From Coptis chinensis (lineage: Eukaryota > Streptophyta > Magnoliopsida > Ranunculales > Ranunculaceae), in contig CM027381.1 in assembly GCA_015680905.1 (NCBI GenBank), positions 65,213,501 to 65,277,500 of the forward strand: a stretch of 64,000 bases of DNA. The letters are read 5' to 3'. Position numbers and translations under genes: made by a program. The notes below the pieces were generated by a model, which saw only the letters and a program-made list of their open reading frames with translations, made no database searches and was not told the origin of the DNA. This document shows positions 21,053-49,243 of the stretch, piece after piece; position 1 is the stretch's first letter, and each line of letters opens with the position of its first letter.

Positions 21053-21331
21053 TGTCACAGCCTGAATTTCTAAACAATAAAAAAAAAAATGGAATTTGCT
21101 GGTATGAGTAGACTAACCATATATAAACATTATCATACTTTAATTATCCAAACAATCACGTTATATTTTCCAATAACTTAATCATTCTCAGCTTGGAAGA
21201 TAGGTAGTTCCGTCATGTTAACCGGCATAGTTTCTTCCCAAGCAAAACTTCCATTATATTAACTCATTCTAATAACTCGTTTTAATATCTAAATCATTGA
21301 ATTACAACTTACCGATATCCACTGCTGTATA

Positions 21332-21377
21332 AGGGTAGGACCGTGTCCCTGCACAAAATATTATTAAGTCCTACCCT
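21332..21377 (-). other. conserved stem-loop in 3' LTR
   Basis: AGGGTAGGAC at 21332-21341 pairs with GTCCTACCCT at 21368-21377, a 10-bp perfect stem. The same stem occurs at 26119-26167 and 37430-37475 with different loops. It lies several hundred bases downstream of the TATA box and would be transcribed. Confidence 0.6.
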
Positions 21378-21967
21378 CCTGCAAAAAAAAGTTAGAACTT
21401 GTATATAACATATGTAGATATCCTATATGTATTCAAAAGAAAACTCAAACACTCGCATAATCAAATTAATACCACTAACCCGCAAGGCGAATACCTTAGT
21501 TCCTCTCTAGGGCAGTCCAAACAATCTGGTCATTCATGGCACATTCAATGAACACCCGGGTCATTCATGGCACATTCAATGAATACCCATAGATAACGCC
21601 AACGGGCCATTTATGACACATTCAATAAATGCCCACCTAACATATGACATCAACAGTCATAAAACTCAATTCTAAAACTTGAGGCGTGGAGAGTTCTAAA
21701 AGAGTGCGGTAAATTTGTTTATACATTATTGAACTTTATTGCATATATTATTTCAGAGAACGTAGGAGTATCTTGTTTCATGTATTTTTGGTTTACGCGT
21801 TATTAATTAGATTGATGTCTAAGTGTCATAACATTGCATATCATAAAAACTGAAACATCACATAGTAGTTAATACACATACACACGTATATATAAAGGTC
21901 TTAGCCTAAAGCCAAGCATGCTAATAGCCCTAGACCTATCTTAATAACCCAAATCATAATCCGAGTA

Positions 21968-22088
21968 AAAAAGTCAAATTGGGTCAACTGGTCAAAGTCA
22001 ACCCTGGTCAAAAGTCAACTCTAGTCAAAGTCAATTCTGTTCAAAGTCAAAGTCGACTTGCCAAGGGTCAACCGCAGTCAACCAGTCC
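21968..22088 (-). promoter_or_regulatory. W-box (TTGAC) array in 3' LTR
   Basis: More than ten GTCAA cores on + (TTGAC on the LTR sense strand) in about 120 bp, about 80-200 bp upstream of a TATATA motif near 21888. It is duplicated in the 5' LTR at 26760-26885. Confidence 0.5.
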
Positions 22089-23417
22089 TAAAGTCAATCC
22101 CTCCAAAGTCCCAAAGATTAAGGCCCAAAACCCTTGGCCTTTCCCAAGCCCAATCTAATTAAGCCCATGAGTGAATATAAAAAAAACACTCAAGCCCACT
22201 AGCTTTGTTTTTTTTAGCCCAAGCAAAATTTACTGTTCATAAATTATAACCTGACCCACTTGGATTTATAAAACCAGCCCACTCAAAACTAAAACTTGGC
22301 CTAAAGCCCAAAACTGAAACCGGCCCAAACCAAACAGATTTCGGCCCAAGCCCAAGCAAAATAGAATTTGCACTGGTGAGATGTGGAGCACTGGATCCAA
22401 ATCGCAATCATTCCCTCCACCACACCAGTTCGGTTTCCGACCACCACCATCCTCCAAACCTAACCAAAAATACTCCCCATCAAAAACCAACAACATTTAA
22501 TGAAAGAAAAAACTTCAAATCATTAGATCAATTATCCTCATCCAAACTAGATCTGGATTCGCCCTCCATTAAAGCTTGTTCAAAGCTTCAATCTTTAATA
22601 GCTCCACCCAATTTAACATTCAACCCTTCCACTACAACCAACATCAACCCAACAACTACAAAACAAAATACACAACATCCAGATTCAAATCTATATTTCT
22701 CCTCATAGTCGGGGCGATCCCGCCGCCATTAACACTCATCTCAAGCTCCCAACAGCCCTCATCCAAACGTCCAAACACCTACCCAACACTTCTCAACAAC
22801 AACCAAACATAAACCCATCTTCACCATAGCAATACGAGTTCAACTCACAACAATAGGACAGGCGACGCCATGAACAACTTCTTCACAGTTTCGACAGTTC
22901 AATGCTAAAATTCGTCATAGTTTATTTACTGTAATATTTCAAAGTTTTGTATCTAACAGCCCCACCATTATTAACGGAGTTTACAATATCTCAAATAGGG
23001 AAAACAGTATTACTGATATGATTAGCATAAACAAATAATTAAACAAAATAAACATCTTCAGACTACTCACTGTTTATAAACCGAACAACTTTCCGAAAGC
23101 GGGAAAAATCCTGAAAGACCGAAGTCGACTGTTGCGCGAAAGGACGATCTTCCTCGTTCAAAACCTTTTCTTCTTTCAGTAACTCCCTTTTTTTTTTCTA
23201 AAACTCTCGCTGTGTTTTTCCCTAAAAACTCTACGTGAGAAACCCCTTTTGGTTTTTAAAAAAAACCCCCACCGAAAAACATGGATGAAAGGTTTATCTC
23301 TTAATCTACGGGGTTTCCTATCCTTAACAAAAGTTTATCCTATTTTGTTTTACTTATTATTATTATTATTATTATTATTATTAGGAAAATAAAAGAATAA
23401 AAACACGGGGTGTTATA

Positions 23418-25422: not shown

Positions 25423-26118
25423 AAATGTCACAGCCCGAATTTCTAAACAATTAAAAAAAAATGAATATTTGAAATATAAATATCTCAAACATTACTCAGT
25501 TTAATTGTCTAAAAACCCAGGCTATGACGGGGTGGATACAACACATGTCAAAACCTAAAACCCACACCATAAAGAATCTTAACAACAAAAATAATCTCCA
25601 AAATTCTCTTTATTACTTTATAAAAAAATCTATCTTCCATCCCAAAAATCATCAATATAACATTCTAAGAATAATAGGTCCTCCACATCGTATTCTCATT
25701 CCATGATGAATATGAAAGTACGTTATTACATACTTCCAAAAATATCAGACCTAATAAAAACTAACGGACTGCTCCAGATCAAATCCAAATCAAACATCGC
25801 GGTTCCACTGCCTTCCACCTATGTTCCCAAGAACACACACACGTTGCCAAAACAAAGCAAATATGGGTCAGCAAAATGGAATTTGCTGGTATGAGTAGAC
25901 TAACACATATAAACATTATCATACTTTAATTATCCAAACAATCACGTTATATTTTCCCATAACTTAATCATTCTCAGCTTGGAAGATAGGTAGTTCCGTC
26001 ATGTCAACCGGCATAGTTTCTTCCCAAGCAAAACTTCCATTATATTAACTCATTTTAATAACTCGTTTTAATATCTAAATCATTGAATTACAACTTACTG
26101 ATATCCACCGGCCAGATA

Positions 26119-26167
26119 AGGGTAGGACCCGGCCCCTCAAGCACAAAATATTATTAAGTCCTACCCT
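26119..26167 (-). other. conserved stem-loop in 5' LTR
   Basis: AGGGTAGGAC at 26119-26128 pairs with GTCCTACCCT at 26158-26167. Part of its loop differs from the copy in the 3' LTR while the stem is unchanged. Confidence 0.6.
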
Positions 26168-26759
26168 CCTGCAAAAGAAATTTAGAACTTGTATATAACA
26201 TATGTAGATATCCTATATGTATTCAAAAGAAAACCTAAACACTCGCATAATCAAATTAATACCACTAACCCGCAAGGCAAATACCTTAGTTCCTCTCTAG
26301 GGCAGTCCAAACAATCTGGTCATTCATGGCACATTCAATGAATACCCGGGTCATTCATGACACATTCAATGAATACCTATAGATAACGCTAACGGGCCAT
26401 TTATGACACATTCAATAAATGCCCACCTAACATATGACATCAACAGTCATAAAACTCAATTCCAAAACTTGAGGTGTGGAGAGTTCTAAAAGAGTGCGGT
26501 AAATTTGTTTACACATTATTGAACTTTATTGCATATATTATTTCAGAGAACGTATGAGTATCTTATTTCATGTATTTTTGGTTTACGCGTTATTAATTAG
26601 ATTGATGTCTAAGTGTCATAACGTTGCATATCATAAAAACTGAAACATCACATAGTAGTTAATACACATACACACGTATATATAAAGGTCTTAGCCTAAA
26701 GCCAAGCATGCTAATAGCCCTAGACCTATCTTAATAACCCAAATCATAATCCGAGTTAA

Positions 26760-26885
26760 AAAGTCAAATTGGGTCAACTGGTCAAAGTCAACCCTGGTCA
26801 AAAGTCAACTCTGGTCAAAGTCAATTCTGTCCAAAGTCAAAGTCGACATGCCAAGGGTCAACAGCAGTCAACCAGTCCTAAAGTC
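26760..26885 (-). promoter_or_regulatory. W-box (TTGAC) array in 5' LTR
   Basis: More than ten GTCAA cores in degenerate GGTCAAAGTCAAC units. They lie just upstream on the sense strand of a TATATA near 26680, in U3. Confidence 0.5.
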
Positions 26886-27174
26886 AATCCCTCCAAAGTC
26901 CCAAAGATTAAGGCCCAAAACCCTTGGCTTCCCGGCCCAATCTAATTAAGCCCCATGAGTGAATATAAAAAAACACTCAAGCCCACTAGCTTTGTTTGCT
27001 TTCGCCCAAGCCCAAAAAATTTATCGCTCATAAATTATAACCTGACCCACTTGGATTTATAAAACCAGCCCACTAAAACTAAAACTTGGCCTAAAGCCCA
27101 AAACCAAAACCGCCCAAACCAAACAAATTTCTACCTAAGCCCCAAGCAAAATAGAATTTGCAATTGGTGAGATG

Positions 27175-28423
27175 TAGGGGTGGGCAATGGGCGGGTCGGG
27201 CTAGTCTGCCCTAAACATTTAAAGCCCTTCAGATATTAGGGGTCGGCCGTCCGCCCTAAAGTCAAAGATAGGGTCGTCGTCGGGTCACAAGTCTAAACCT
27301 CAAGCTCCTCCCCGACCACTAGCCCCTTTTTAGGGCTTTAGTGGTCGGCTTTAGGGCGGGGCTTTAGGGCAGCCTATATATTTTTTTTTTTTACTACATC
27401 GCTTTTAAAACTCATTTATATTACAAAAAATGTACAATAATCTACAAACTCAAAGTCCAACCAATCTAGTAATAATCATGTATAAGTCCAAAATTTAAAA
27501 TGCACATCCACAAAAATGAATCTAGTAATAATCATGTACATCGAGAGTTTAAAATGCACGAATTTGTTCTTCCTTGTACTCAAACCTCACTAAAATTACA
27601 TTTAACATTGAAATACATAGACAAATAATTATATTATCATTTTAAAGGAAGAAGTAATAGATATAAAGAAGAAACATAATAGTTTTGGTTAAGGGTCATA
27701 GAAGTTGTTAAACTATTTGTAATATCATAAATTATTTCTATAATAGATTCAAACAAATATAATATTACATTTCTTCTAATTTAAAAGTGATTCAAGCTTT
27801 GTATATGGAAATGAAAATATTGGCTTTTGAACAAGTGATGGAGAAAGGTTTGAGATTACAAATGTCATTTTTCTGACAAAGGGTGTTTTTTGGTTTCTAT
27901 GTTACAAATGTCCGCTCGTATTTTTGCTTTAATGGTGTGGAAGGAAACCTTTAGTTTTAGACTTGGCTTGGATGTGAATAAAAATATAATTTATAAGAAA
28001 TAAGTGAGAAAAGAAATTGAGAATAATAAGTTATGGACTTTGATTTGATGATCAAAGGAATAAAGTCTTATTTTTTATTAGGCTAGTGCTCATTGTTCTT
28101 CATGGCTACTAAGTTGACAAGTTTTTGTTATATAAAACAAGTTATTGGAAGTACCCTTGGGTGTAAGTGATAAATTACAAAGGACAATGTTATTTTAATT
28201 GAAAATATTTAACAAAGAGTTGGACAATTATGGTATGTGTATTTATAGTGAAAGTCCAAAGGGCTTGGTTAGGGCTTGGTTAGGGGTCATCCCTTAGCCC
28301 TAGCCCCACACTAGAAGGCATTAGAGGTAGGCCGGCCCCCTAAACTCTCGTGAGGGCTTTAGTTGTGAGGGCTTTATAGGGCTTAGGGTCTACTATCCTA
28401 GGGTCCAAAAATTCCCACCCCTA
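27175..28423. mobile_element. non-autonomous hAT-like element (1,249 bp)
   Basis: The ends are TAGGGGTGGGCAA and (complement) TAGGGGTGGGAAT, the usual plant hAT termini. The flanks GTGAGATG (27167-27174) and GTGTGAAT (28424-28431) are an imperfect 8-bp duplication. The allelic 3' LTR is uninterrupted at this point (about 22376), proving an insertion. GC-rich subterminal GGGCTTTAG-like repeats occur at both ends. There is no transposase ORF. Confidence 0.85.
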
Positions 28424-29555
28424 GTGTGAATGGGGAGCACTGGATCAAAATCGCAATCATCCCTCCACCACACCGGTTCGGTTTTCCACCACTACCATCC
28501 TCCAAACCTAACCAAAAATACTCCCTATCAAAAACCAACAACATTTAATGAAAGCAAAAACTTCAAATCATTAGATCAATTATCCTCATCCAAACTAGAT
28601 CTGGATTCGCCCTCCATTAAAGCTTGTTCAAAGCTTCAATCTTTAACAGCTCCACCCAATTTAACATTCAACCCTTCCACTACAACCAACATCAACCCAA
28701 CAACTACAAAACAAAATACACAACATCCAGATTCAAATCTATATTTCTCCTCATAGTCGGGGCGATCCCGACGCCATTAACACTCATCTCAAGCTCCCAA
28801 CAACCCTCATCCAAACGTCCAAACACCTACCCAACACTTCTCAACAACAACCAAACATAAACCCATTTTCACCATAGCAATACGAGTTCAACTCACAACA
28901 ATAGGACAGGCGACGCCATGAACAACTGTTTCACAGTTTCGACAGTTCAATGCTAAAATTTGTCATAGTTTATTTACTGTAATATTTCAAAGTTTTGTAT
29001 CTAATGTTTCCCACCATTATTAACGGAGTTTACAATATCTCAAATAGGGAAAACAAGATATTCGATATGATTAGCATAAACAAATAATTAAACAAAATAA
29101 ACATCTTCGGACTACTCATTGCTTATAAACCCGAACAAATTTTCTTTGAGCGGGAAAAATCCCGAAAGACCGAAGTCGACTGTTGCGCGAAAGGACGATC
29201 TTCCTCGTTCAAAACCTTTTCTTCTTTCAGTAACTCCCTTTTTTTTTTCTAAAACTCTCTCTGTTTTTTCCCTAAAAACTCTACGTGAGAAACCCCTTTT
29301 TGTTTTTAAAAAAAACCCCACCGAAAAACAAGGATGAAAGGTTTATCTCTTAATCTACGGGTTTCCTATCCTTAACAAAAGTTTATCCTATTTTGTTTTA
29401 CTTAATATTATTATTATTATTATTATTATTATTAAAATAAAATAATAAAAACACGGGGTGTTATAGAATCTGTCTATATTATACTTTTGCAAGCTAAACA
29501 ATCAACTCAACTACTTTTGTTTTGAGCCATTGGCATTGCAGCGCTCATTTTCATT

Positions 29556-33700: not shown

Positions 33701-34069
33701 CTAATGGACAAAGCGGAAATAAGTGGTGTAGTGATTCTCTAGATTCTTCATGAAGAGTGGTCTACTATCCCACCATTTCCTTTCACCTTGAACCAAGTTA
33801 GCCCCATGTTTAGAACAGCTATCGGCACCAAGGTTGGTCTCTCTCCAAGTGACTGTGACATTGATCCATTCTGCATGTTCCTTCATAGTTTGCCACCTTT
33901 CCCGGACTCTCCAATGTAATTTATTCTCCTGAAAAGCTTGGACCACCGATTTCAAATCACTCTCCACCCATATATACTTCCATCCCATTTCCAGTGCCTT
34001 GTGTACAGCTTCCACAATAGCCATCATTTCCGCCATGTAATTAGTATTGACCCCATACCTCCCGGCCAC
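33701..34069 (-). pseudogene. LINE RNase H domain (RVT_3 type)
   Basis: Motifs MAEMMAIVEAVHKALEMGW, WVESDLKSVVQAF and ETNLGADSCSKHGA fit the plant RNase H domain at the end of L1-like ORF2. It is the most intact piece, 122 codons to the stop near the poly(A). Confidence 0.8.
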
Positions 34070-35138
34070 CCTAAGAATTCACCCTTATAGTTTCTCATAA
34101 CTATTCCCCAACCCGATCTCCCAGATTCCCTCTCGAGCACCCATCAATATTTACCTTTATTATTCCAGTGGAGGAAGAGTCCGAAGCATTCAATGATTTT
34201 CGTGCTCTTCTCAGCTTGTGATGAAGATTGAAGACTCTAAGAATCTTTAAGTCATGTGAACCGAAGTTCTCCATATGCCCCAGTAGATCGTGGGTGAGCT
34301 TGAATGATTGCTCGTCTAGCTAAAAAACATATATGCGATAAGCTTGAGTCTTTATTGTCGTAAAGCACTCTGTTCCGGTTCTTCCAAAGACTCACCATCA
34401 TAGTGATAGAGCAAGCTTTCCACATGTCAAGAATGAGGGAGTTGTAATGCTTACCTTGTCACCGCACATCCCAAAATGATTTCGGTTCTTGGAAGTGCTG
34501 AAAATGTCTCGAGCATAGTTCCAAACTGTTTTGGCCAGCTTGCATTGAAAGAGTATATGCTCTAAAGTTTCTAGCTGAGTACGGCAAATGCAACATCTAG
34601 AGGCCAGCTGCATTTTCCGCCTTTGGAGCTGATCGTTTGTTCTTGTTATACATCGCCCGACTTCCATGCAATATACCTTGAGTTTTCGGTAGAACCTTTG
34701 AGCTCCATATGAATTTACACCAAGCTGGTTTGGCTGATTTCTTTTGGATGGCATCATGCGCTTCCGAAACTATGAATTTCCCATTAGAATTGCCTAACCA
34801 TACCCTTGTATCCTCTCTTGCATCTTTTAGGGTGTAGAGTGCCCAGTTTCTATGCCCATTTGCTGCAACAGTTGAGTCATGTTTACCGAAAAGTTCCAAG
34901 TATCTCCCAGAATACACTCACTGAGCTTTGACTGAAATTTGACAATCTTTTTGCTCTCTTCCTGAAAGAAATCGCAGAGCGGTTTATTCAATAATCAATT
35001 CTCTCTCCACAGATTGATAGAGTTTCCATTGCCCACTGTCCAGCCATGCAGATGCTTCATCTCACTAAGTGCCCATTTGATACCTTTCCAAACAGTGGAG
35101 GTTTTGTAGTTTGACCATCCCCCGCTCGATTGGTATAT
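34070..35138 (-). pseudogene. LINE zf-RVT region, frameshifted
   Basis: It includes VWLGNSNGKFIVSEAHDAI (34780-34840), WCKFIWSSKVLPKTQGILHG, and CCICRTQLETLEHILFQCKLAKTVWNYARDIF (34500-34600), the zinc-binding reverse-transcriptase domain C..C...H...C. Two overlapping frames show a frameshift near 34620-34680. Confidence 0.8.
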
Positions 35139-36273
35139 TTACCTTTCATGTATGACGCCAATCACTATCCTCTCGTTAGAAGACTCCACGCTTGTTTCAT
35201 AAGCATTGAGAGATTGATATCGTGTAATCTCCTTAACCCCAGTCCCCTTCCTCTCAGAGGCTTTGCAAGCTTTCTCCCATGATACCGTGATAGCTTTCCG
35301 TTCTGCCGGGTTTCCACTCCAAATGAAATTTCGGATAATAGCTTCACATTCCTTTATCACTTATCTCGGCCACTTGTAGATAGCCATATTATGCACTGGG
35401 ATGCTGTTTAGAACGTGTCGTGCAAGAACTACCCGTCCTTGGAAAGATAGTAACTTCCCGGCCCATCCCGAAGCTTTGCTTCTGATCTTATCCACCAAAA
35501 GAGCAAGTGCTACTTTCGTTAATCTCCCCTTGACTAGAGGTACCCCAAGGTACTTTTCAGGCAAGGTACCTTCCTTGATTTTCAGAGTCTCCTGTATACT
35601 CTGCTTCCATCTGGTTGTCATTAGGCTGAGAAATTTTTTGCATTTGTCTTTGTTAATGATTTGTCCCGACGAGTCTTGATATCTGTTAAGAATCTTGACA
35701 ATCTATCTGATGCATCTCATGTTAGCATTACTAAACAAGAAAATATCATCTGCAAACATTAGGTGTGATGGACTGCAGTATTTACCATTAACCACCATTT
35801 GCCGAATCTTCTTCTCGTGGACAAGCTTGCTGATGTTTCTGCTTAGATAGTCCTCTGCTAATGCGAAAATCATTGGGGAGAGAGGATCCCCCTGTTTTAG
35901 CCCTCTCTCCGCCGAAAAATGCCCTATTGGTCCACCATTGATCATTATAGACATTGAGTTGCTAGAGAATGCTCCTTGTAGCCATTGAATCCAAATGTCA
36001 CGTAATCCCACATGCCGCGGATCGCCTACGAAATTCCCAATCCATTGTATCAAAAGCTTGAGAAATGTCAAGCTTGATTGCTAAACTTCCTCCATGCCGA
36101 GGTGTTTGCAGCTCATTGATTAACTCGGAGGCTAACCCGATGGCTTGCTAAGAGTTTCTGTTTGGTATGAAACCATATTGCTCTTTGCTAATGATCCTTT
36201 CAGCAATTGGGCTTAATCTTACGGCGAGAATCTTGGTGATGATCTTGAATACAAAATTGGAGAGACAAATAGG
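35139..36273 (-). pseudogene. LINE reverse transcriptase, 5'-truncated
   Basis: It starts in the conserved NFVFKIITKILAVRL segment, then GFIPNRN, LDISQAFDTMDW, GLKQGDPLSPMIFALAEDYLS and the catalytic MFADDIFLF (about 35735-35765). The thumb LGVPLVKGRLT and ...LSFQGRVVLARHVLNSIPVHNM follow at 35361-35621. At least three frameshifts or stops are present. Confidence 0.85.
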
Positions 36274-36724
36274 CCTTGAGTGTACGAGAATGTAGGTATG
36301 AGTATTCCTTGAATGTGGTAGGAATGATCCAAGGTATTCATTGAATGTGCCATGAATGACCTGTTAGTGTTATGATGGGTATTCCTTGAATGTGGCAGGA
36401 ATGACCCAAGGTATTCATTGAATGTGCCATGAATGACCTGATATTTTGTTATGCCCAAAAAAGGCTTTGTGTATGTGTATGGAAAGCCCAGAGATGACTG
36501 TGACTCACAAGTTACGAGTTTACAAGATAAAAATATGTATCCTGGAGGCAATATCCCCGCTTGGGATATATGTCTTGTAGTGGTATTCGGTGTGAGTGAG
36601 GCACACGGATATGTGTGATTTGGCAAATGTGTGTAGTGCAAATCGTGGAGTAGGAACTAAATGTTGGGCTGTGTCTTTTAATAAATGAGTCAACGAAATA
36701 ATTAATAAGCAAAATAAAATATTG

Positions 36725-37350
36725 ATTTTACGTGTGTTGGAGCTATTGCATATGATATATATGTTTTCTTATGAGAAATATTTATGTGGTTTGTGTGAGT
36801 TGATACTCACGAGGGATGAATGTACTCCCTAGTTGTGACTTTTTCCTCGCTCTCATAAATAGACGAGTGATATTAAAGTAAAATATTGATTTTTACGTGT
36901 GTTTGAGTTATTGCATATGAATATTTATGTATTATGATGTACATGATTTCTTACAAGGAAATGTATACATGGTTTGTGTGAGTTGATACTCACGAGGGAT
37001 GAATGTACTTCCTAGTTGTGATATAGTTCCTCGTTCTCATCAGTAGACGAGTGGTTTTTTAAAAAAATATTGGCTTTAAGTATGAGCAAGTTGTTGGATA
37101 TGATTGGTGATATATTATGATATGATGCATATAATTTCTTACGAAGGAATATGAATATGATTAGCGTGATATGATTGATATGGTTGTGTGATATGAATGT
37201 TAGTTAATATTGGTGATATATTATGCTATGATGGATATGGTGGTGTGATGTGAATGTTAATTAATATTGGTGATATATTATGATATAATGGATATGGTGG
37301 TGTGACATAAATGTTAATATTGGTGATATATTATGCCAGATTATATATAC
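36725..37350 (+). repeat. tandem duplications in solo LTR
   Basis: A ~170-bp unit (TTTTACGTGTGTT...GTTGATACTCACGAGGGATGAATGTACT) occurs at about 36725 and 36890. After it come three ~65-bp units with AATATTGGTGATATATTATG (37215, 37263, 37316). Confidence 0.65.
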
Positions 37351-37429
37351 CCATGATGGTTGCAGTGAGAGTGAAATAGATGTATACTATAAATGATTAT
37401 GCTTGGAAAATCTAACTTTGTTTTGCAAG

Positions 37430-37475
37430 AGGGTAGGACTTATTAACTTTTTATGTAGAGACGTTGTCCTACCCT
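37430..37475 (+). other. conserved stem-loop in solo LTR
   Basis: AGGGTAGGAC (37430-37439) pairs with GTCCTACCCT (37466-37475), identical in stem to the two chromovirus LTR copies despite strong divergence elsewhere. Confidence 0.6.
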
Positions 37476-38156
37476 AAGACGACGTGTTGGCTTAAAGGTA
37501 AAGTGTATCGAACTCATATTTAAATAAGTTATCATATATGTATGTAGTAAGTTGAATGTAAGTGGAAATTATATTGTGAGTTATTTTGGAAAGTGAGCAT
37601 GATGAATACTGTTATCTGAGATTTCTTGGAAATGTATACTGGGGGTTGAAATTTTACTTAGAAAGAAACTTCATGCCGTTTTAAGAATACGGGAACTAAC
37701 TTCTCTTCTAAGTTGAAATGATTGAATAGTATATTTCTTTATTCGAAAAATATGAATGTATTGCTATTTTATATTTAGTCTTATTCATACTAGCAAATTC
37801 AATTTGTTGACCCATGTTTGCTTTGTTTTGCAATGTGGGTATGTTCTTAGAAACATAGATGGTGGAGTGCAGTGGATAAGGACACGTGATTTGGAGTTGC
37901 TCTTGGAGTCTTCTGGTTTAAGTTTTTTTGAAGTGTATGGTTTTGTTTTGAGACAAATGTACTAGAGTTGGTTAGTTTCTTTGTAGTTTAATAATGTACG
38001 AAGAGTTGTATATATATATATATATAACTGAAATCAAAAGAAAACTAAAATATATATCTTGTTTAATAACAGGGTATTGGGTTTTGTTTCACCCCGGGTT
38101 TTCAGATGATTGAATATCATTGTTTTAAATATTGTCTGAAAATTTGGGGTGTGACA

Positions 38157-38900
38157 TAAATTGTCTCCGTATTGTTGAACATTACTAAAAGTTTAATTTA
38201 AATGTTTAGTTTAACTACGTAAGAAAATGATACATGTTATATTCTCTTAAACTCTTTGTGATTTTTGTGTTTGAAGTTTTAATGGCTTGGAGTAGTTGTA
38301 TGTCCATCTTACCACATGCAATTAATCTAGGGATAAACTTAGCGTATTTTTATGACATATAGTATATATTAGGAGTAACGGTATTGAGGATATTAGTTGT
38401 GCATTGTTTATATCCATACTACTAAGTCAAGTGATGGCATGACTACTTTCTATTCTGAACGGATGGTAGCGGTAGAAAATAATAAGAAGAAGGACCTTCC
38501 AACCTTAGTAGATTCACATATACAAGATAAATCACTTATTCCACAAAAAAATATCTAAACCACTTATAATAGATTTTACAGGTTCTTTATCGGAGATTAA
38601 CTAATAACTTCAAATATATTGGTAGATCAACTTAAGACTTGCTTTGGTTGCTCAACAACCTTGGCCATTACTTCAAAACTATCATTCTTGACTCATTACG
38701 TAGTTAGTGTATTTTATTTTCCATAATGAATCATTGATTTAAGTTGGAAGGAGACGACAACTTTTTTTTTTCTTTGCATATGTTTATGTTGTTCACAGGT
38801 TGCTGAAGTTGTAGTAGTTGTGGAAGTCTTCAAAAGATAAAAAGTGAGGTTCACCATAGATTGTTTAGAGTTAAATGATTGAGAGTTTTAGAAGAAAGTA
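38157..38900. other. no supported gene
   Basis: Host-like AT-rich sequence between the solo LTR and E3. A splice-acceptor-like TTCACAG followed by a short open stretch (VAEVVVVVEVFKR) at about 38795-38840 is the only coding-like hint. Confidence 0.35.
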
Positions 38901-39688
38901 AGGTAGTTTCTTTTTAGGACTTGTTTAGATTCTAGTTGAATAAAAAACATTTAAAGCTTAAGTTGTTTTGAAGATTGAAATAACACAAACATTGAAAGAA
39001 ATTATTGAAACGAAATATTGGAACAAAGAATAACAAAAAGAAGATTGATTGATTGAATAACAACACAAAATGACAAGATTGAAATGAAGAACAATACAGT
39101 AAAAAGACTTGAATAAAAAATACTAGAAAAATAAATCCTACATGACACTAGATTAAGTCTAGGTGCATTCTTTACTCCTACAAACCAATTGGTTTGGACC
39201 CTAAATGCAATGGATATCTAATTCTCTACATCTCTTTGGCTTATATATGACACCATTACAAAACTACCCCTCTCCTATAGATTCATGACACCTCACAACT
39301 TGCTTTTACTTTATGTTTTTCTCCTTTATGTTTTTCTTCTTGACCAAGATAGGTTTTAGAGAATGCCATATTTTGTACTAAGGACCTCCATCTCTGGTTT
39401 TCTGAGTTGAGGGCTTTGACCTTTGACTTTGATATTTGGCTTTGACCCTTGACTTTGACCTTTGACTTTGACTTTTTCAACACTTTTTCATAGCAGCTTC
39501 TGGTCTTCATAATAAGTGTGATTAAGGCTCATTTTGGTGCTAAGACGCAACTTTTATGATAAGTGGTCTGAATTTCTCTATAACCTAAAAAATACAATAA
39601 AAGCTATGAATTGTCTTTTCATTAAACGTAAGGAGGGCTGTAATACAATATTGTAAGGGTAATAAAATACACATTTGGGAGCTGATCA
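38900..39688 (-). repeat. 3' LTR of E3 (outer end approximate)
   Basis: On minus it starts TGATCAGCTCCCAAA directly after the PPT. It has a TATATAAG box at about 39240-39250 and a GTCAA array at 39408-39481. I could not find the terminal CA with confidence. Confidence 0.6.
39408..39481 (-). promoter_or_regulatory. GTCAA (W-box core) array in E3 U3
   Basis: Eight or so GTCAA/TTGAC cores in 70 bp, some 160-240 bp upstream of the TATATAAG box on the minus strand. Confidence 0.45.
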
Positions 39689-39722
39689 CCACCCCCAAAT
39701 AGCATCTTGCTTGTCCTTAAGC
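39689..39722 (-). other. polypurine tract of E3
   Basis: On minus AAGGACAAGCAAGATGC followed by TATTTGGGGGTGG abuts the LTR start. It is the counterpart of 2896-2929 and 54505-54538. Confidence 0.7.
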
Positions 39723-40174
39723 AAGGATGAGAGAAAAAAACTAAGATCACAAATGAGTTATTTATTATAAGTTATATTAATCTCATTTCGTAGAGTGCAA
39801 TTGCATTGACCATATGAAACAAGGCCTTAAATCACTAAAAATTCCCTAGTAGATAAGTTTTAAGCCTTGTGAGAGTTTTCCAGTGAAGGTACTCTCAAAC
39901 TTCTTCTATTTAGTACAAAGGATCTTGTTTCCTTATTTATTCTCAGAAGTCTATACATCTCATTAGCGGGGAATAAGGACAAACTCCTTTGAACTTTGAG
40001 TAATATATGTACAGTAATTTAATCACCTAAAGATAAATATGCAAAACATGAGCAATGAAATGCAAAAGCAGAGTCATTTCTGAGACTTATAGAAAGCGTC
40101 CTTAAGGTGGTTTTCACAGGGGTGTGTTGCAATCACAACTCTCTGATAGATTCACTCAAGGTTCGTTCTCTTAA

Positions 40175-40560
40175 CACTACTAAAAAAAAAGGTTTTTATC
40201 TCGGTTCTAAAATTAGCCTTATCTCGGTTCTGCTGATAAGAGAGATAATATGTCTTGTGAATGAGATAATATGTCCCATAATTTAGGTACTAACTCTGAG
40301 TATAAATCTGTTATCTCTCCTCTTACTTAACCGAGATAAAATATATGGATTTTACCACTGGTGGTATGGAACAGATATAATAGGAAATTTCATTTATCTC
40401 ACCATTGTGGAACTGATATAATAGGAAATTTCAACCATCTCACATTGAACTGATATAATTGATATTAAACCAAATATCTCGGCACTCAAATGATATAATT
40501 GCTATTATACCAAATATCTCGAAATAAATTTGGCAAAGAAAACAAAAATCCCAAAAAAAA
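40175..40560. repeat. left subterminal region of CACTA
   Basis: The 18-bp terminal repeat is followed by TATCTCGGTT at 40198, 40219 and (inverted) around 40330, plus degraded GAGATA(A)TATG copies. Such repeated motifs are known transposase-binding sites in En/Spm; here it is inferred from position. Confidence 0.65.
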
Positions 40561-40610
40561 AATAGAAGTCCCGCTCTACAGTACTCTCTCGTGACTTTCA
40601 CGAACTCACG

Positions 40611-40965
40611 ATGGCAACTGCCGTTCTAATCTCCACTATCTCTTCGTGTATATTGCCCTCTCTTAACCTCTCGCACCCATTTCAACTCCACAACAGTTCA
40701 ACAATTCTTCTGGGTTTTCAGGTACTAAAATGATCGTAGATTAAGCTAGGAGATTATATAGTGTTCAAAACTAATCAGATTTTTGAAAAATGATTAATCA
40801 AACTTAGAATATTGAATCTAAGTTATTCATGTATAAATAAGTTAGTGCCTAACCTTTATAAACTGATTTGTAGTTCTTCCATCAGCTATTCATTCGTTGT
40901 TAGAACAAATTGGATCTGAGGAGGTTCTGGTCGTCCTGCCTCAACTTGATTTGCTTTTGAGCAGG
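40611..40965 (+). pseudogene. two unidentified captured exons
   Basis: Exon 1 (40611-40721) opens with ATG and codes 37 residues rich in Ser and hydrophobics (MATAVLISTISSCILPSLN...), ending exactly at a GT donor. This could be an organelle transit peptide. A second exon-like segment (40874-40965; LPSAIHSLLEQIGSEEVLV...LDLLLSR) lies between an AG acceptor and a GT donor. I do not recognise either, and they may come from one gene or two. Confidence 0.45.
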
Positions 40966-41154
40966 TATTACTCTTTTTTTTTTTTTTAGATAAGGCATTC
41001 TTGTACGTAGCGAGCTTTTTTCTTGTATCTATGACTATATCAACTTGGTTTTACTAACAGAGACCAAAAGAAATTTACAGTGGTACTATATTCTACTAGT
41101 GTTATCTGCGTTCTTTCTTTGTTTCTTTCCGTCTATTAACTGCTCTCTTTGCAG

Positions 41155-41616
41155 TGTCATGTGATTTATGGCGCAGATATTGCCCAAGACCTGAAGGATT
41201 TGCATGAAGAAGATGACTTAGCCATTGTTCTTGACTCAAAGGATTGTCCACGCTGCATCATAGAATTCATTTCTCAGAGCCTTCAAATGCTACCTTTGGA
41301 GGATTCAAAGAGAGACCTCTTGGTATATCCATCTTGGCCTAGCAAAGCACTTCATTATAGTCATACGATTTGATTATGCTTTGGCTTATGGTAGGCTCAA
41401 TGCATTGCAGGAATCCAAATTTACTTGTTTTCATGAAGGAATTGCTATCTGCGAACAGCTCATTGGTATCCCAATTCCTCTCTCTTACACTTGCTTGACC
41501 TCAAGGTTTCTAGTGCTTTGGCATCTCACCCTTTCGGTCATACTCTGGGACAACTGCAGGTGGATCGTTGTCCCTGCTACTTTTATCAGCGCGCCCTCTT
41601 TGTTCTGCATTTAGGA
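41155..41616 (+). pseudogene. captured bestrophin-like channel (UPF0187/VCCN1 type) fragment
   Basis: Two exons with proper AG/GT borders. 41155-41322 encodes CHVIYGADIAQDLKDL...CIIEFISQSLQ...SKRDLL; 41411-41616 continues in phase with ESKFTCFHEGIAICEQLIGIPIP...TSRFLVLWHLTL...PATFISAPSLFCI. These match the central part of plant thylakoid bestrophin-like voltage-dependent chloride channels. A TAG at 41612-41614 stands where the family has Glu, just before the donor. N- and C-terminal thirds of the gene are missing. Confidence 0.85.
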
Positions 41617-41970
41617 AGTATGTTTCACTTTAACAATTTTGCATTATGTTTTACTTAATTACGTTTAGAGTGCATCCTGTGCTTTCTTATGCTATTTATT
41701 CATTTTTGACCTGTGAATCCTGTGAGGCATTCTTTATCTCCTTCTCACTGCATTTTGTTTGCTGGTTATATTGATTCATGTATACATACATCACAGTATC
41801 CATATGCATTTATCTATACAGACGATTCCTATAAAAAAAATATCTATACAGACGTACAGATAACTGTATATATTTGTTAAGTTTATTTACTTCTTGCTTG
41901 TTAACTCCTTTGAGTAAACCTAGGTTAGCAATCTACATGGTTGCCTCGGTAACGTGCTTGGGTCTGGCAG

Positions 41971-44104
41971 AGGGCAGATGCATCCACTTTCTGGAAGGAA
42001 TTCACGGGCGACGGAAGAATGTGGGTGACATTCTATACTGGTTTTAATTGATTCAGCATTCTTTACTTTATTTATGTTTACTGTTTAGTTAGAATCCAGA
42101 TGTTAAACGTCTCTTATTTTTTTAGGTACTATTACAATAAAGTCACAAAGCAATCTAAGTGGACGATTCCTGATGACCTAAAGGTTTCTTCTCGCGGTTT
42201 CTCCACATATCGTAGTCTTTTCCCCTCCTAAATAATTTCTAGTTACCTATTCCGTCTTTCTTATCTTGCTATATAATGCTTCCAGTTGGCTCGTGAGCAA
42301 GCAGAAAATTTGTCTAGTCGTGGATTTCAACCGTAAGTCTTTGCTTGACCACCACTCAAGCCGCCGTGTGATAAATGTTTCTACATGAAAGGACCATCTA
42401 CCTCATCCGTTTTGAGCCATTGATTGTTGCTGTTGTGGAGTTCGCTGCCTGGCGGCCCTTGGGATCACAATCTACTCAAGTTATTCCTTCCGTGGCACCA
42501 AATGTTGCTGGAGGTCACTCTCCTGTGGCATCTGTCACTCCCTTACATGCTACGATCACCGGGAATGGAGTTTCTATGCTGTGCTGGAAAACACTACATT
42601 GACGTATTGACCTGTTTAGTCCTATTGAATTTTACACACTATTGGGAGTGAATTTTGGATAATCATAGTTTGCTGTTTCTGCTGTCAATGGTTTCAGGAA
42701 TACTTCCGTGAATTTACTTCCTCAAGATGTTGCAAATTTTGCTGATGTAGCCTCTTCGGGATCTTGAGGTCTTGAGGTTTCAGTTCTCTCTCTTATCGGA
42801 TGCCTTCTTATGTCAGAAAAAGACTGATTAAATTCCTGTTTCCCTTTGCCGAAGTCAATAAGTATACAAAATAGATAAGCATCATTTGTACTATCTTCTT
42901 AGGGATGGTATATGGTTTCATATGGATCTTTTATTTCTCTACTTGCAATGGAGTTTAAGGCACTTGATCCTATTAATCTAATAATTATAGTGATTAGTTT
43001 GCTAATTTAACTTGCAATCGCGTATCATCTTTGATGTTTTTACTTTTAGCGAGAAGTAAAAAGGGTATGGCGATTCTTTGGAAAAATAAATATTACTCCA
43101 ATGGAGGAAAAGTCGAGTTGATGATGAACCTTTGGTTTATGCTAGTAAGCAAGTTTGCTTAGGATTCTCCTTTTATAGCACTGAATTAAAAATAAAGTAG
43201 AAAATACCTTTTTATAGTTGACTTTTACAGACTAAAAGAAGTTTTGGTTATGTATCATTTTAGGAGGCAAAAATTGCGTTTAAAGAACTTTTGGAATCTG
43301 CGAATGTTGAGTCTAATTGGAGCTGGGAACAGGTATATTTATCTCTTCCCAATATTTCAGTTTCTAGATATGCACTTTGATTTAATGATGAAATCAAAAT
43401 ATTACAGGCCATGAGAGTAATAGTTAATGACAAAAGATATGCTGCTTTGAGAACACTTGGAGAAAAGATATGCTGCTTTGAGAACACTTGGAGAACATTT
43501 TGAGAACACTTGTGAGGTAAGCCTTCACAATGGTGATTCTTCATTTTCTTTTTCTTCTACGCTTCTCTTTGTTTCTCGTCATCAGTGATATCGTAATTAC
43601 TTGTACTTTTTGTATTTTAGTACTTGGGTCAAAGGAAAAAACAGGAAGCCGAGGAAAGACGCATTAAACAAAAAAAGTCTCGAGAAGAATTCACGAAAAT
43701 GCTAGAAGTAAGACGGATAGTACTCCCAAATCTATTATTTACAACAATAAGATGGGAAACTAATTGATACTTTTGCTTGACAGGAGTCCAAAGAACTAAC
43801 GTCGTCTACAAGATGGAGGTTTGTCTTCTCTCTTAAGTACCACTGATTTTTCGTGTTGATAGTAAAGTTTGCTATAAAGTTGAAACCTTTCAACGTATTT
43901 CATACTGTTATTCGTATTTTGAGATGGCATAAGCAGAGTACTATTTAAATGTAATGTCACTTCTAACGCTCTATATGAATTGTTTCATTATTATCTAGCA
44001 AAGCGATATCCATGTTTGAGGATGACGAGCGATTCAAGGCTATTGAACATCCTAGAGATCGCAAGGATCTTTTTGAAAACTATTTGTTGGAACTTCAAAA
44101 AAGG
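41971..44104 (+). pseudogene. PRP40: captured PRP40 fragment (WW and FF domains)
   Basis: About ten exon-like blocks with introns. The second WW domain is RADAST.WKEFT.DGR / YYYNKVTKQSKWTIPDDLK (41971-42183) followed by LAREQAENLSSRG (42286-42332). A linker follows near 42440-42760, with a stop at about 42760. The first FF domain is EAKIAFKELLESANVESNWSWEQ (43264-43332) / AMRVIVNDKRYAALRTLGEK, then YLGQRKKQEAEERRIKQKKSREEFTKMLE and the start of FF2 (...SKAISMFEDDERFKAIE) to 44104. PRP40 is a U1 snRNP-associated splicing factor. The copy is truncated at both ends, has a 31-bp internal duplication at 43422-43490, and lacks full WW1 and later FF domains. Confidence 0.9.
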
Positions 44105-44820
44105 CAAGTTTTACTTGTTATTAAATTTCTCTATGTTTGAATGATGTGATTTCTCCTCATGTGGTCTTTAATTCAGTATATTCCACCTATCTAAGTTTTA
44201 CTTTACAAGACATCTTCCATCGTTCCAGTCTATTGAAGGTCATATGTTGTGTTAAGTTGCATGTTTTCAAATTTTCGCAACCCATCTTATACTGTGTTCT
44301 AGTCTTTACCTTACCTTCTTTATTTACTCAAGTCATTTGGTATTCCTTGCTAATTTTGAGTCACAAGACATGCTGGTAAGAGTAAAACCCTTGCTTTTTC
44401 ACGACACCTTCTTACCAAAATTTCCTTTTAGTGGTAACAAAAATTAAATAAGAAATACCTGCCTTGGCATAGGTGTGAGTGTAAGGTCTCCGGGAGGACT
44501 ACAAATAGGGTGAAAAGAGAAAGCAATTAATAGAATTAACTTTGATGAATCACTGTTTGCCTTTCAAGTGTCCCTCGATTTTCTTGCCACAAGAACCCCA
44601 ATATTTTTTCTTAAATCTATGATCTTCAGCTTTTGTTCTCTTTTCTCCTCAAAACTCCATCGGATATGTTACTTGCTTTATTTTTTCATTATAGTCCACA
44701 GACCCTCGTTCTTCCGTTCATCTCAATTTTGTTCTCTCTCTGTTATGCATGTTGGTTCTTTAGATGCTAGTCGTCTCTATATGGTACATTGCAAGGAAGT
44801 TGTTACCTAGTACTTAGTAT
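44105..44820 (+). other. CACTA spacer, no supported gene
   Basis: AT/CT-rich filler between the PRP40 and DnaJ fragments; short ORFs only (such as 44137-44379 and 44568-44810, low complexity and hydrophobic). It may include intron or flanking DNA of the captured genes. Confidence 0.4.
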
Positions 44821-45924
44821 TTCACTATAATGAAATGTTTAAGGAGATGATTCTGAAGCAGTTGATATGTTTAAGGAAGCCACATTTTCTTACAATATTT
44901 TGTTTGATCCGGATAAACGTCGTCAGTATGATACTGCTGGCTTTGAGGCTATTGAAGCAGAAAGTCAAGAATTGGAGCTAGACTTATTGAGTTTGGGAAC
45001 TGTCAACACCATGTTCGCTGCACTTTTTAGTAAGCTAGGTGTGGCAATAAAGATTACTGTATCAGCAACTGTGTTGGAGGAAGCACTGAATGGTGCGGTT
45101 ATTGTTCATCTACTTCAGCTGGGACAATCTTGTTTTAAGAAGGTTGAGAAACAGTGTGCTCACTTTTATTCTGTCGACATAACCGAACAGGAAGCACAAG
45201 CAAGCCTTGTCTGTCGAGTCCAATCATCGGACAAGAGCAAGTTTAAGCTATTTTATTTTGAACTCAAGGATAACGATGGATTAAGCCTGGCATTGCAGGA
45301 GGAGAGTGCAAAAATTAGAAAATGTACCTCAGCTGGGATGTATTTTCTTGGTTTTCCTGTTTACTGGTTGGATCAAGCAGTCAATTCGTTGGCAGCATCA
45401 AAGGATCCCAATACTGCTTTCCTTAAAAAATTGGACAGATTTCAGCATGTGAAATATCTGAGCTAAAAGAAGGCACCCATGTATTTTCTATTTATGGTGA
45501 CAACTTCTTTAAAAGTGCAAGCTACGTAATAGAAGTTCTTTGTGCTGGACCTTTTTCAAAAGAAAAGGATAAACTCAGGGTTGTGGAAGCTCGAATCTTG
45601 ACTAAAAGGGTGGAACTATCCAAGTTTGAAACCGAGTATAGAGAGGTGTTGGCACAATTCACAGAGATGGCCAGTAGATATGCATAGGAAATGCAAGCTA
45701 TTGATGAACTACTGAAACAAAGAAACACAATCCATGCCTCCTACTCAACTGCTCCTCCTCTGAAACGAAGTTTGAGTAGTAGCAAAAGCAGTGATTCCTT
45801 CAAAGAATTCAAGAAGGAAGAAGAATGCCAAACCAGTCGTAAAAAACATTGGGCAAAGGATAGGCCGAAAAAAAGCAAATGGTTCAATGTTCGCTTGAAA
45901 ATGGATAAGGACAAGCCTTGCTGA
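44821..45924 (+). pseudogene. ARG1: captured ARG1-like DnaJ protein fragment
   Basis: It begins inside the J domain after the HPD motif (MFKEATFSYNILFDPDKRRQYDTAGFE), then LGTVNTMFAALFSKLGV, VLEEALNGAV, KQCAHFYSVDI, SKFKLFYFEL, GLALQEE-type and SAGMYFLGFPVY segments (44867-45440). After a frameshift near 45450 comes GDNFF, FETEYREVLAQF, an in-frame TAG at 45686, then DELLKQRNTIHASY and the C-terminal KSKWFNVRLK. This matches the ALTERED RESPONSE TO GRAVITY1/ARL family from helix III to the end. The HPD-containing helix II is lost. No introns are visible over about 365 codons. Confidence 0.88.
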
Positions 45925-46440
45925 ATTGGAGCATATGATTTGCCTTCCTAATGGGTCTTCATGTGTACCGAAGGTCCGATTCTGTCATCTTCTTGGGTTG
46001 TACACTCTCTGAATCTGAACAATTGTTGAATGACTTCCCAACAACTTAAGGGTGATCTGCTCTTTGTACTCGACATTTTTTGCAGCAGTTGTGCAATCGC
46101 TCAACTACAACCTTGGTCTGGCATTTTGCTCTCCTATTCCTCCCATAGCCATGAATTGATGGCTTATTAGTGAAGGAGATGATGCTCCTAGTACAATATT
46201 TGCATAATCTTGCATGTAAAGGATAAATGCTGCGATTGTAAAATTCATGCAATTTATTATTGCTTCTCTTGTTATTCAATTTATAAGCATTTTGCTTGTT
46301 CCATGCCTAAAAAAAAGTACATGTGATCGAGGTTTTTCTTTTGTCTGTCTCTGAGTATCTCTAAGTGTTATGCTTTAATTTGTATGGGAGTCATGGTTTC
46401 TTATATCAATGATTAATGTCTTTGGTGAATCTGTGGCTTA
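45925..46440 (+). other. CACTA spacer, no supported gene
   Basis: Probably the 3' flank of the DnaJ fragment followed by the 5' flank of the DCD fragment; no motif recognised. Confidence 0.4.
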
Positions 46441-46445
46441 ATAGA

Positions 46446-48210
46446 ATGGCAGGTGGACGGAGAAAAGAAACACACTCAAAGAAAAAGAAGAACGAAACAC
46501 ACACTTTGGGAGACAGAATTCCACATACCCCTGGTGTTAATAGCAGTGCACCTGCATATCATTATACAAAAGAGCAGCTTGGTGCGGTAATATTTGGCTG
46601 TAAACATGAGACAATGGGCGAAAGCCCTAAGGAACCTGTTATTTGGTTAGTATAGTAGTACTTCAGCTTTTAACTGCATATTACTTAAAGCATGTTATTT
46701 TGTCTCTAGCTACAAGCCTACAACCACCAAAATTGGGATTTTTTTAAACTACTTCTCTAGTAGATCTTCAATTCTGTTTATGCAATTATGCATAGTATAA
46801 AAAACAGATAACGTATATAACTAATAATTAAGGACACACCCCCCTTATTAACATTTTACCGGATTGGACTTGGTTAATACAGTAGATTCGACCCCGAAAA
46901 GCTACTTTGATTCCAGAGACCCAGAGAAGAGCCACACATGTTTACATGTTCCATTATTTCACTTAGGGTATCAATAAATGAGGGGGTATTCGGATTGATT
47001 TTCAGCTTTAGACATAATCCATAACTTTTTATTGGAGAGCTGTTGCTTGATCGAGAAAGAAAGCATACGGAGAACATTCATATCTTTTAAATTCAGACTT
47101 AACTAATAGATGCAGCACCACTGCAGCAGATTTTCTTAAGTGTGAGTTGTTGGCTTTCTTCCACTCAATAATATCACACATACCGTTTTCTTCAATTATG
47201 CGATAATCCACTGAATGACATTGTCAGAGCTCTCCTGTAGTGGCCCTAGTAAAAGCATAGGTGCATAGCGATTTTGGAATTTTCAGATATGAGTTTGTTT
47301 GTTTAAAATCCCAGATTTTTCTATTAATAAAACTTTTTTGTAGTTTGTTAACATATCTAACTTTCATATTAATTTATTTTCATTTCTAATAACTTATACT
47401 ATGTTTTGGTTTGAACTCTCATTAAATCTCTATTAACTTTTGTGCAGGCTTACCAATTTGGCATTTCTCGTATATAAAAAATATTGAGCCAGGGTTGCCG
47501 ATATTCCTATTCAATTACAATGGTAGGAAATTACACGGCATTTACGAGGCAACTAGTCATGGCCGATTAAACATTAACCCACATGCATGGACAAATAAAG
47601 GTTCTGACCAGACTCAATTTCCTGCCCAAGTACGTGACCGCATACTTCTTTTCCCCGATTCTTTAGTGATATCTCTATATATATCTTGTATTCGATCACA
47701 TGATGTTTGATTTTCCTGTGTCCTTGTTCAGATCAAGAAGCAATGCAAGTCCTTGCTAGAGGACCAGTACAAGAAGGTCCTAGAGAAAAACTACATGGAT
47801 GAGCTGTGCTTTCGGTTTGAACTTGATCACAGACAAACTGCTCAACTCCTTTCCTTGTTTGAGTCTTCTTCTGCAACTAGCCCCTACAATGCACCGATCA
47901 GAAGACCTTTCAAAGATATGCTCCTAGAAACGAAGACAGACCGAAGTTAACTTCAGACGGCGGTGCTTCTGTTGAGTTCTTTAACGAAGCATCAGCAGTT
48001 GGAGCTGAATTTACCCTTCCTATGACACGGACATGGGCTTCTCTCTTCGAAGAGACTCATGGCTCTGATGCTAAGCCTAGTACTAGTTGGAAGGAAGCAG
48101 GGGCTTCATATGTTGTTTCTGGTTGGGACGAAGAGGAAGGGCCTTGTTGGACGAACAACCCATATATGGAGGATGAACATTCTCCTATAGCACCTTCGGT
48201 ATCTAGGTAA
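46446..48210 (+). pseudogene. captured DCD-domain protein fragment
   Basis: Exon 1 (46446-46645) has MAGGRRKETHSKKKK... then the DCD start LGAVIFGCKHETMGE. Exon 2 (47449-47630) continues LPIWHFSYIKNIEPGLPIFLFNYNGRKLHGIYEATSHG...INPHAW..., ending at a GT donor. Exon 3 (47733-48208) has the DCD end (LLEDQYKKVLEKNY, FRFELDHRQTAQLLSLF), a frame change near 47920, and a downstream segment ending at a GT donor. DCD proteins act in plant stress and cell-death responses. Intron 1 (46650-47448) is unusually long and contains minus-strand ORFs. The 3' end of the gene is missing. Confidence 0.87.
46874..47211 (-). other. unidentified open stretches inside DCD intron
   Basis: Two overlapping minus-strand frames (47211-47029 and 47077-46874) encode peptides such as GMCDIIEWKKANNSHLRKSAAVVLHLL. 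They look protein-like rather than low-complexity. They could be a further captured gene fragment in antisense or chance ORFs; I do not recognise a family. Confidence 0.3.
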
Positions 48211-48920
48211 GTATAAAAATCTCTTAATTGATTACAGATTGTGCGATTAAGCAATGTGAGGACCCTACATCTATCCTACCAGAGCTTCATTAGGGTGAGA
48301 TAGCTTCCAGTGACACACATATATAGTAATGATGTCCTTGAGCAATCAAATAATTCTGTTAAGGTAGGGGCCTCCACTAAAGATGCACTTCAAGATGAGT
48401 CCTTGGTTGCCAAGCATTCCGCTCCAGAGCGTGGACATATTCTTTAGATTCTCAAAAAAAAATTTAGTAGGAAATTCAGTAGGAACCATCTGTAAGGAGG
48501 AAATTCAGCAGGAACCATCTGTCTCAGTTCTTAACTATATAGAGAAAGGTTAAAAAATGTCTTATTATAGTTCGAAGAATAGTACTTGATACAATATTTG
48601 AGTTTCTATAAATAAATGACTGATCACTAGTACTCTTTGAAAGTTAAGATCATGTTCGACATTGTTCTTTCTTATCTTAATGAAATACGTTTTTCAAAGA
48701 ATTTACTTATGTTGGGTTGCTTTTGTTAATTGGTGTTGATGTTTATGAATATGAAAGGGAATTGTTAATTGGTGTTGATGTTTATGAATATGAAAGGGAA
48801 TGTGGTGGTTTGGGATAGGTTTTTACTTCCTGGTTAATTGTCATGAGCAATACCAACAAAAAATGATAAAAAATGACAAAGGGTGAGATAAAAGGTTGTC
48901 CAACAATCTCCCTTTCCAAA
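48211..48920 (+). other. CACTA right internal region, direct duplications
   Basis: No gene seen. A 39-bp perfect tandem duplication (TTGTTAATTGGTGTTGATGT...AAAGGGAA) lies at 48724-48801. A shorter one (GAAATTCAG(T/C)AGGAACCATCTGT) lies at 48470-48525. Confidence 0.55.
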
Positions 48921-49240
48921 AGAATTTATCACGGTTATTTTTTGATATTATCTCGGTTTCAATATAAAAACATCTCAGTTTTCTTCTATACTAATTGGTT
49001 TCAATCAACAATTTATCTCGGTTTTATTCTATATTATATCGGTTTTATTTAGAAAACCGAGATAATATATTTAGATAAGATGTCAGACTTCTGAGATAAT
49101 TTTGTAGCTTATTATCTCAGTTTTATAGAACTCTATTACCTCAGTGGATTTTACCTCGGTTGTTTTTTCCTAGAAAACCGAAGTAAAAACTCTAATATCT
49201 CACCTTTTAGCTGAGCTTATAAACCCTTTTTTTAGTAGTG
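48921..49240. repeat. right subterminal region of CACTA
   Basis: About ten TATCTCGGTTT / AAACCGAGATA motifs in mixed orientation between 48930 and 49200, then the 3' terminus CCCTTTTTTTAGTAGTG at 49240. Denser than the left subterminal array. Confidence 0.7.
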
Positions 49241-49243
49241 TAA

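Follow-up and report, generated by a model that had tools for sequence, protein, structure and literature searches.

A CACTA element of Coptis chinensis with a cargo of genomic gene fragments and an intronless, poly(A)-bearing gene copy

How do pieces of several unrelated host genes come to lie together inside one mobile element? The question is raised by a 64,000-nucleotide stretch of the Coptis chinensis genome (assembly GCA_015680905.1, contig CM027381.1, positions 65,213,501 to 65,277,500, forward strand), in which positions 40175-49240 (9066 bp) constitute a non-autonomous CACTA element carrying bestrophin-like, PRP40, ARG1-like and DCD-domain gene fragments. We refer to the whole 64,000-nucleotide stretch as the window, and coordinates without a contig name are positions within it. 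The structure of the element, its copies and their duplications, the parents of its cargo, the absence of introns from one piece and the poly(A) at the end of that piece can all be read directly from the DNA. With a probability of roughly 85%, we consider that this is a Pack-CACTA element whose cargo was built both from genomic DNA and from a spliced mRNA copy, and which was mobilised in trans and amplified.

The element and the sources of its cargo

The genome searched comprises 935.6 Mb in 116 contigs, of which eight are 90-125 Mb long, and C9 yields matches beyond 70 Mb; loci outside the window are given as contig and position. The parts of the element, with strand in brackets, are as follows.

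40172-40174 and 49241-49243: left and right copies of the target-site duplication TAA, seen directly and in the empty-site comparison
40175-40187 (+): left terminal inverted repeat CACTACTAAAAAA, 13 bp, from the motif count
40197-40520 (no strand): left subterminal repeat zone with TATCTCGGTT and variants in both orientations, from the motif count and reading of the sequence
40560-41056 (+): the family's own 5′ leader, common to transposase-bearing relatives, from the genome search and a PF02992 search
41116-41963 (+): bestrophin-like gene fragment with intron, a DNA-level copy of C6:84.477 Mb (95.7%)
41962-44826 (+): PRP40 (WW and FF) gene fragment with introns, a DNA-level copy of C2:114.174-114.177 Mb (92.6%)
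44827-44843 (+): filler of about 17 nt between the PRP40 and ARG1-like pieces, containing ATGTTTAAGGA, the same in all five copies read of lineage B (described below)
44844-46311 (+): spliced complementary DNA (cDNA) copy of an ARG1-like/dnaJ16 gene, 5′-truncated in an early exon, with the gene's stop codon and 3′ untranslated region (UTR)
46309-46316 (+): poly(A) remnant abutting the DCD piece, 8 A here, with a longest run of 10-20 in seven other copies
46315-48251 (+): DCD-domain gene fragment with introns, a DNA-level copy of C7:92.723-92.725 Mb (92.9%)
48252-49227 (no strand): right terminal region, with subterminal repeats at 48927-49161
49228-49240 (-): right terminal inverted repeat, the reverse complement of CACTACTAAAAAA, from the motif count

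The ARG1-like piece matches, exon by exon, a multi-exon gene at C1:26.251-26.2615 Mb. There nine introns, with borders that we read as GT...AG, interrupt the captured stretch; the element has the ten exon blocks joined to one another, all nine junctions being intronless at the exon borders. The 3′ UTR runs to the sequence CCTAAA, after which the C1 gene continues with TCATTC and the element copies have an A-run and then DCD sequence. In every one of the eight copies read, of which five belong to lineage B and three to lineage A, this A-run is joined straight to the DCD piece. Its longest uninterrupted stretch is 8 to 20; Ts interrupt it in one copy, a G closes it in another, and in a third the first A is replaced by T. 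The loss of introns at exon borders, together with a 3′ poly(A) tract that the gene does not have, indicates that this piece is a 5′-truncated retrocopy and not a genomic capture. The DnaJ profile scores below its cut-off on the piece itself; we take its identity from the product of the C1 gene, which matches dnaJ 16/ARG1-like proteins (87% identity to Thalictrum).

The other three pieces retain their introns, and alignments with their parents cross these without large gaps (in part read base by base), from which we conclude that they were copied as genomic DNA. Pfam searches of the plus-strand translations gave matches over the cut-off for Dev_Cell_Death (2.1e-31), Bestrophin_2 (7.8e-17) and FF (2.6e-8), and below it for a second part of FF (2.6e-4), DnaJ (0.0077) and WW (0.043); minus-strand translations gave no match at E up to 1. 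The C6 parent has more bestrophin exons upstream of the captured part, the C2 parent has another FF domain downstream of it, and the DCD domain is present at the C7 locus. The earlier note on this DNA, made from the window's letters, had described fragments of at least four unrelated host genes that all point the same way, and the Pfam domains and the four parent loci agree with it. The parents lie on four chromosome-sized contigs (C6, C2, C1 and C7), which rules out a contiguous origin at a single ordinary locus, the possibility that the note had set against its own reading. A longer PRP40 capture in a precursor was also considered and rejected: the 501 PRP40 bases past the end of the fragment at 44826 match fully at the gene alone (best 40 of 1405 candidates scored, the remainder covering a short repeat within the query).

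Within the window CACTACTAAAAAA is found without mismatch only at the two termini, and since its count at up to two mismatches is near chance (7 against 5.25 expected) just these two exact matches stand out. TATCTCGGTT, allowing one mismatch, has 13 matches in the window where 3.33 are expected, a number reached in none of 100 shuffles, and 10 of the 13 fall within the two subterminal zones. The joined flanks (260 bases from each side with one TAA) align through the junction, without a large gap and at 69% identity each, to two further copies of the repeat around the element, which self-comparison of the window had located; the element was therefore inserted into that repeat, which we take to be the one previously named E3. 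The CACTA termini, the TAA duplication and the E3 homology on both sides, all noted earlier, thus hold up against exact 13-mers and an empty-site alignment. Inverted CACTA termini, 3-bp duplications and subterminal repeats in both orientations place the element in the CACTA superfamily, and it has the constitution of a Pack-CACTA: a Pfam search of translations found no transposase inside it on either strand, and it holds host coding sequence with parents elsewhere. Elsewhere in the window, reverse transcriptase and zf-RVT domains on the minus strand at 34001-40172 mark a LINE-like (long interspersed nuclear element) sequence upstream of the insertion, and a repeat of about 2.3 kb is present twice at 95% identity (21086-23417 and 25873-29465), the second copy being split.

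Copies, relatives and the family leader

The left 1001 bases of the element have at least 55 matches in the genome (best 40 of 258 candidates scored). End-to-end copies are present at C3:82.52 Mb (95.4%) and C2:29.89 Mb (93.7%), the entire cargo recurs at C2:101.44 Mb at 93%, and the right half of the element is found at C6:69.77 Mb. Simpler relatives at C7:28.26 and C3:55.72 Mb have the element ends and the bestrophin piece alone, which fits a stepwise growth of the cargo. We compared 13 left-end loci, the window element included, and ten of these had both ends inside the fetched stretch, one of them (C7:51.06 Mb) with a right end that is a weak match. As anticipated in the earlier note, the termini recur elsewhere with duplications of their own: the 3-bp sequences are identical on the two sides in all ten elements and comprise eight different trinucleotides. 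Two of the ten have common flanks, so that nine independent insertions are represented. These two, on C1 and C6 (L017-L018 and L021-L022), have the same flanking bases and the duplication TGA, and are thus located in duplicated or repeated host sequence.

The segment at 40560-41056 has at least 58 matches genome-wide (best 40 of 164 candidates scored). At five of them (C2:15.96, C5:32.25, C4:77.92, C4:78.67 and C8:43.36 Mb) a Transposase_21 domain (PF02992) lies 2.37-2.86 kb downstream on the same strand (best 150 of 2715 transposase candidates scored), and the chance of at least five among 40 leader sites being near a transposase is about 7e-12 under a uniform model. From this position upstream of the transposase we conclude that 40560-41056 is the 5′ region of the CACTA family itself, where its promoter and first exons may lie, and it is through these five leader-sharing relatives that the family is associated with Transposase_21. 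The segment had previously been counted as two unidentified exons among the captured cargo, an assignment that falls away. At C4:77.92 and C4:78.67 Mb half-processed ARG1-like loci lie about 10 kb downstream of the transposase with the matching leader upstream, suggesting that transposase-bearing elements probably carry cargo too.

These half-processed loci belong to a sister group of 13 (34 of 34 candidates scored), which we call lineage A to distinguish it from the fully processed lineage B. The ARG1-like match in lineage A starts at a common point, with PRP40 at about 44375 joined to ARG1-like sequence at about 45103 in all 12 loci fetched. The first four introns (45103-45498) are gone and the 5′ part is continuous; the last three introns are present and the exon blocks there are separate, two of the introns aligning with those of the gene and the third appearing as a gap of the expected size (12 of 12 fetched). 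Both lineages have the same poly(A)/DCD junction (three of the three lineage A copies that reach it). Insertions and deletions crowd at CAG/CTG sites in some comparisons, amounting to 58-59% of them in two lineage A pairs (from loci such as L036, L045 and L046), with 11% of the bases close to a site of this kind, and to 50% between the PRP40 gene (L033) and element positions 41962-44826, where 13% are; the other six pairs compared give 0-18%. The pattern resembles what consensus errors at methylated CHG sites, or else a genuine process linked to CHG, would produce.

Native DCD upstream sequence stands in place of the poly(A) at the DCD gene and at C7:23.87 Mb, a DCD-bearing locus without ARG1-like sequence where the match continues into the element's right region. 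Searching with this upstream sequence, with 29 of 29 candidates scored, turned up C7:17.00 and C7:51.09 Mb as well, each 15-16 kb from a DCD match and so not directly next to it; none of the ARG1-like matches (34 of 34 candidates scored) lies beside any of these places.

ARG1-like sequence is present outside these elements as well. A separate retrocopy at C8:80.05 Mb (L029:1160-2604) starts upstream of the J domain, ends without an A-run, and makes an internal jump to the same early exon, at nearly the same base at which the element copy is truncated. As a direct source of the cargo it is unsupported, having neither the A-run nor the 3′ end and showing indels of its own. Seven more sites (C7:94.17, C5:69.81, C4:16.37, C2:7.91, C2:69.12, C5:68.93 and C9:36.76 Mb) match the 5′ part of the gene across exon borders (query 94/99 to 252/393, 76-93%), and three of them score equally, as if another repeat family had taken up the gene.

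Proposed assembly of the cargo

We propose that the cargo was built stepwise, the bestrophin-like, PRP40 and DCD pieces being taken as genomic DNA including their introns. A spliced and polyadenylated ARG1-like mRNA would have been reverse-transcribed and set inside the element in 5′-truncated form, so that its poly(A) end came to abut DCD DNA. The completed composite would then have transposed, with transposase supplied in trans by relatives that share its 5′ leader, to give the at least three end-to-end copies that now exist. We infer the order of these steps, the source of the reverse transcriptase and the trans-mobilisation. The filler at the other end of the ARG1-like piece includes ATGTTTAAGGA, whose 11 nt recur about 30 nt downstream within the piece, and this repeat may be the mark of a templated end joining.

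Several observations weigh against this proposal. No target-site duplication was recognised, by eye, around the ARG1-like insert, which is flanked by PRP40 and filler on the left and by DCD on the right, so that classical retroposition is not demonstrated. The 13 loci of lineage A misfit one simple event. The copy at C2:101.44 Mb is without the left 628 bases adjoining the cargo, and its leader match is about 15 kb away. Among the parents, the DCD "gene" at C7:92.72 Mb was identified by its match and domain alone, a gene being the likely reading, and some 4 kb upstream of it there is a CACTA-like right end; at C6 a distance of 1.3 kb separates the bestrophin match from a CACTA-like 12-mer.

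How the ARG1-like sequence entered the element can be explained in other ways. With a DNA-level route known for the other three pieces, and a separate retrocopy of the same gene in existence on C8, the element could have taken a pre-existing processed pseudogene as ordinary DNA, with no RNA step on the element itself. However, the poly(A) meets the DCD piece without any intervening DNA that would have flanked a retrocopy, and outside elements the 3′ UTR is matched by the gene and the C8 retrocopy alone (34 of 34 candidates scored), the latter of which stops short of the A-run and differs in its 5′ sequence; we regard such a capture as possible, at clearly less than an even chance. A bolder reading starts from the straight join of the poly(A) to element DNA and the templated filler at the other end: the repair of breaks would let CACTA elements acquire cargo directly from the cDNA of the cell, exchange with cDNA or with the parent gene could switch this cargo between spliced and unspliced forms, and sequence could pass in both directions between host mRNA and mobile DNA by way of Pack-CACTA elements. 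This we consider doubtful.

The relationship between the lineages is more evenly poised. The ARG1-like cargo may first have been half-processed, with lineage B losing the remaining introns by a second RNA-derived conversion, or lineage A may have regained introns; in detail, lineage A could reflect cDNA from a partly spliced transcript or gene conversion from the C1 gene. The 13 loci without the four 5′ introns but with separate downstream exon blocks, and the poly(A)/DCD junction common to both lineages, speak for a history of this kind, but after masking of gaps and CAG/CTG sites there are too few informative positions to separate the directions, and per-segment distances on clean columns left the order of the ARG1-like states undecided, there being too few clean sites. 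We put the odds at about even. That the whole composite is an assembly artefact fusing unrelated loci is, by contrast, exceedingly improbable: in some copies indels cluster at CAG/CTG sites, which hints at local errors of the consensus, but identical junctions on different contigs with different flanks largely contradict such an artefact.

Coding state, function and known systems

The captured coding sequences have decayed. An in-frame stop interrupts the bestrophin piece at 41612-41614, 31 nt are tandemly duplicated in an FF exon of the PRP40 piece, the ARG1-like frame contains a stop and has lost 1 nt, and small indels are present in the DCD exons; with its frames so damaged the element is unlikely to encode a chimeric protein. 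Splice sites, said earlier to be retained, are so in part: the bestrophin donor and the first PRP40 acceptor are preserved flanking their junction, GC replaces the gene's GT at the last captured PRP40 donor, and the intronless ARG1-like piece has none. It has been suggested that such an element acts as an exon-shuffling or silencing device, in which the leader might drive a chimeric spliced RNA, or small RNAs might hit the four parents. All four pieces do lie in the orientation of the leader, the two splice sites named survive, and soybean Tgm-Express1 produces such transcripts (PMC1947982). Yet a common orientation of four pieces is expected by chance in 1 of 8 cases, and the stops, frameshifts or indels in all four pieces and the GC donor argue against a device, which we judge unlikely. 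The element most likely has no present host role and is a neutral passenger.

Pack-CACTA elements with cargo from several genes, as in soybean and maize, are a known class. The CACTA element Tgm-Express1 of the soybean wp allele, 5.7 kb in length, contains five host gene fragments, and host transcripts take up their exons by splicing (PMC1947982). Like the Coptis element it holds several unrelated fragments with exons and introns, but its cargo is described as exonic and intronic and its splicing was shown, whereas here one piece is a spliced poly(A) cDNA and the element is known from its sequence (PMC1947982). Maize Pack-CACTA elements often contain coding DNA of several loci (PMC8903248), and the capture proposed for Pack-CACTA and Pack-TYPE elements is DNA-based, by neighbouring insertions and aberrant excision (PMC13317346); applied to the Coptis element, a model of genomic-DNA capture alone, as for those of Arabidopsis, rice and maize, leaves the poly(A)-tailed intronless piece unexplained (PMC8903248, PMC13317346). 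Intron loss mediated by reverse transcription has been proposed for CACTA transposase genes, with both partial and complete loss discussed (PMC4158355), which is likewise RNA-derived sequence in CACTA elements but affects the transposase gene and not host cargo. An animal survey threw out intronless captures and mentions one retrogene, ARF6 in MER20 (PMC8277862); this too is a retrocopy associated with a terminal inverted repeat transposon, but it is a single animal case for which the authors allow recurrent retroposition, whereas here the composite has multiplied.

Our literature search, covering excerpts of open-licence papers, found no case of a poly(A)-tailed cDNA piece among the cargo of CACTA elements, and in the parts of the literature examined CACTA gene capture is explained by DNA-level models. 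The new point is an amplified CACTA cargo made of genomic DNA together with a spliced mRNA copy. Pipelines that drop intronless captures, as the animal survey did (PMC8277862), would miss such elements. A family with RNA-derived cargo that also has half-processed sisters, bestrophin-only relatives and DCD-bearing relatives would allow both the order in which the cargo was assembled and the mechanism to be reconstructed.

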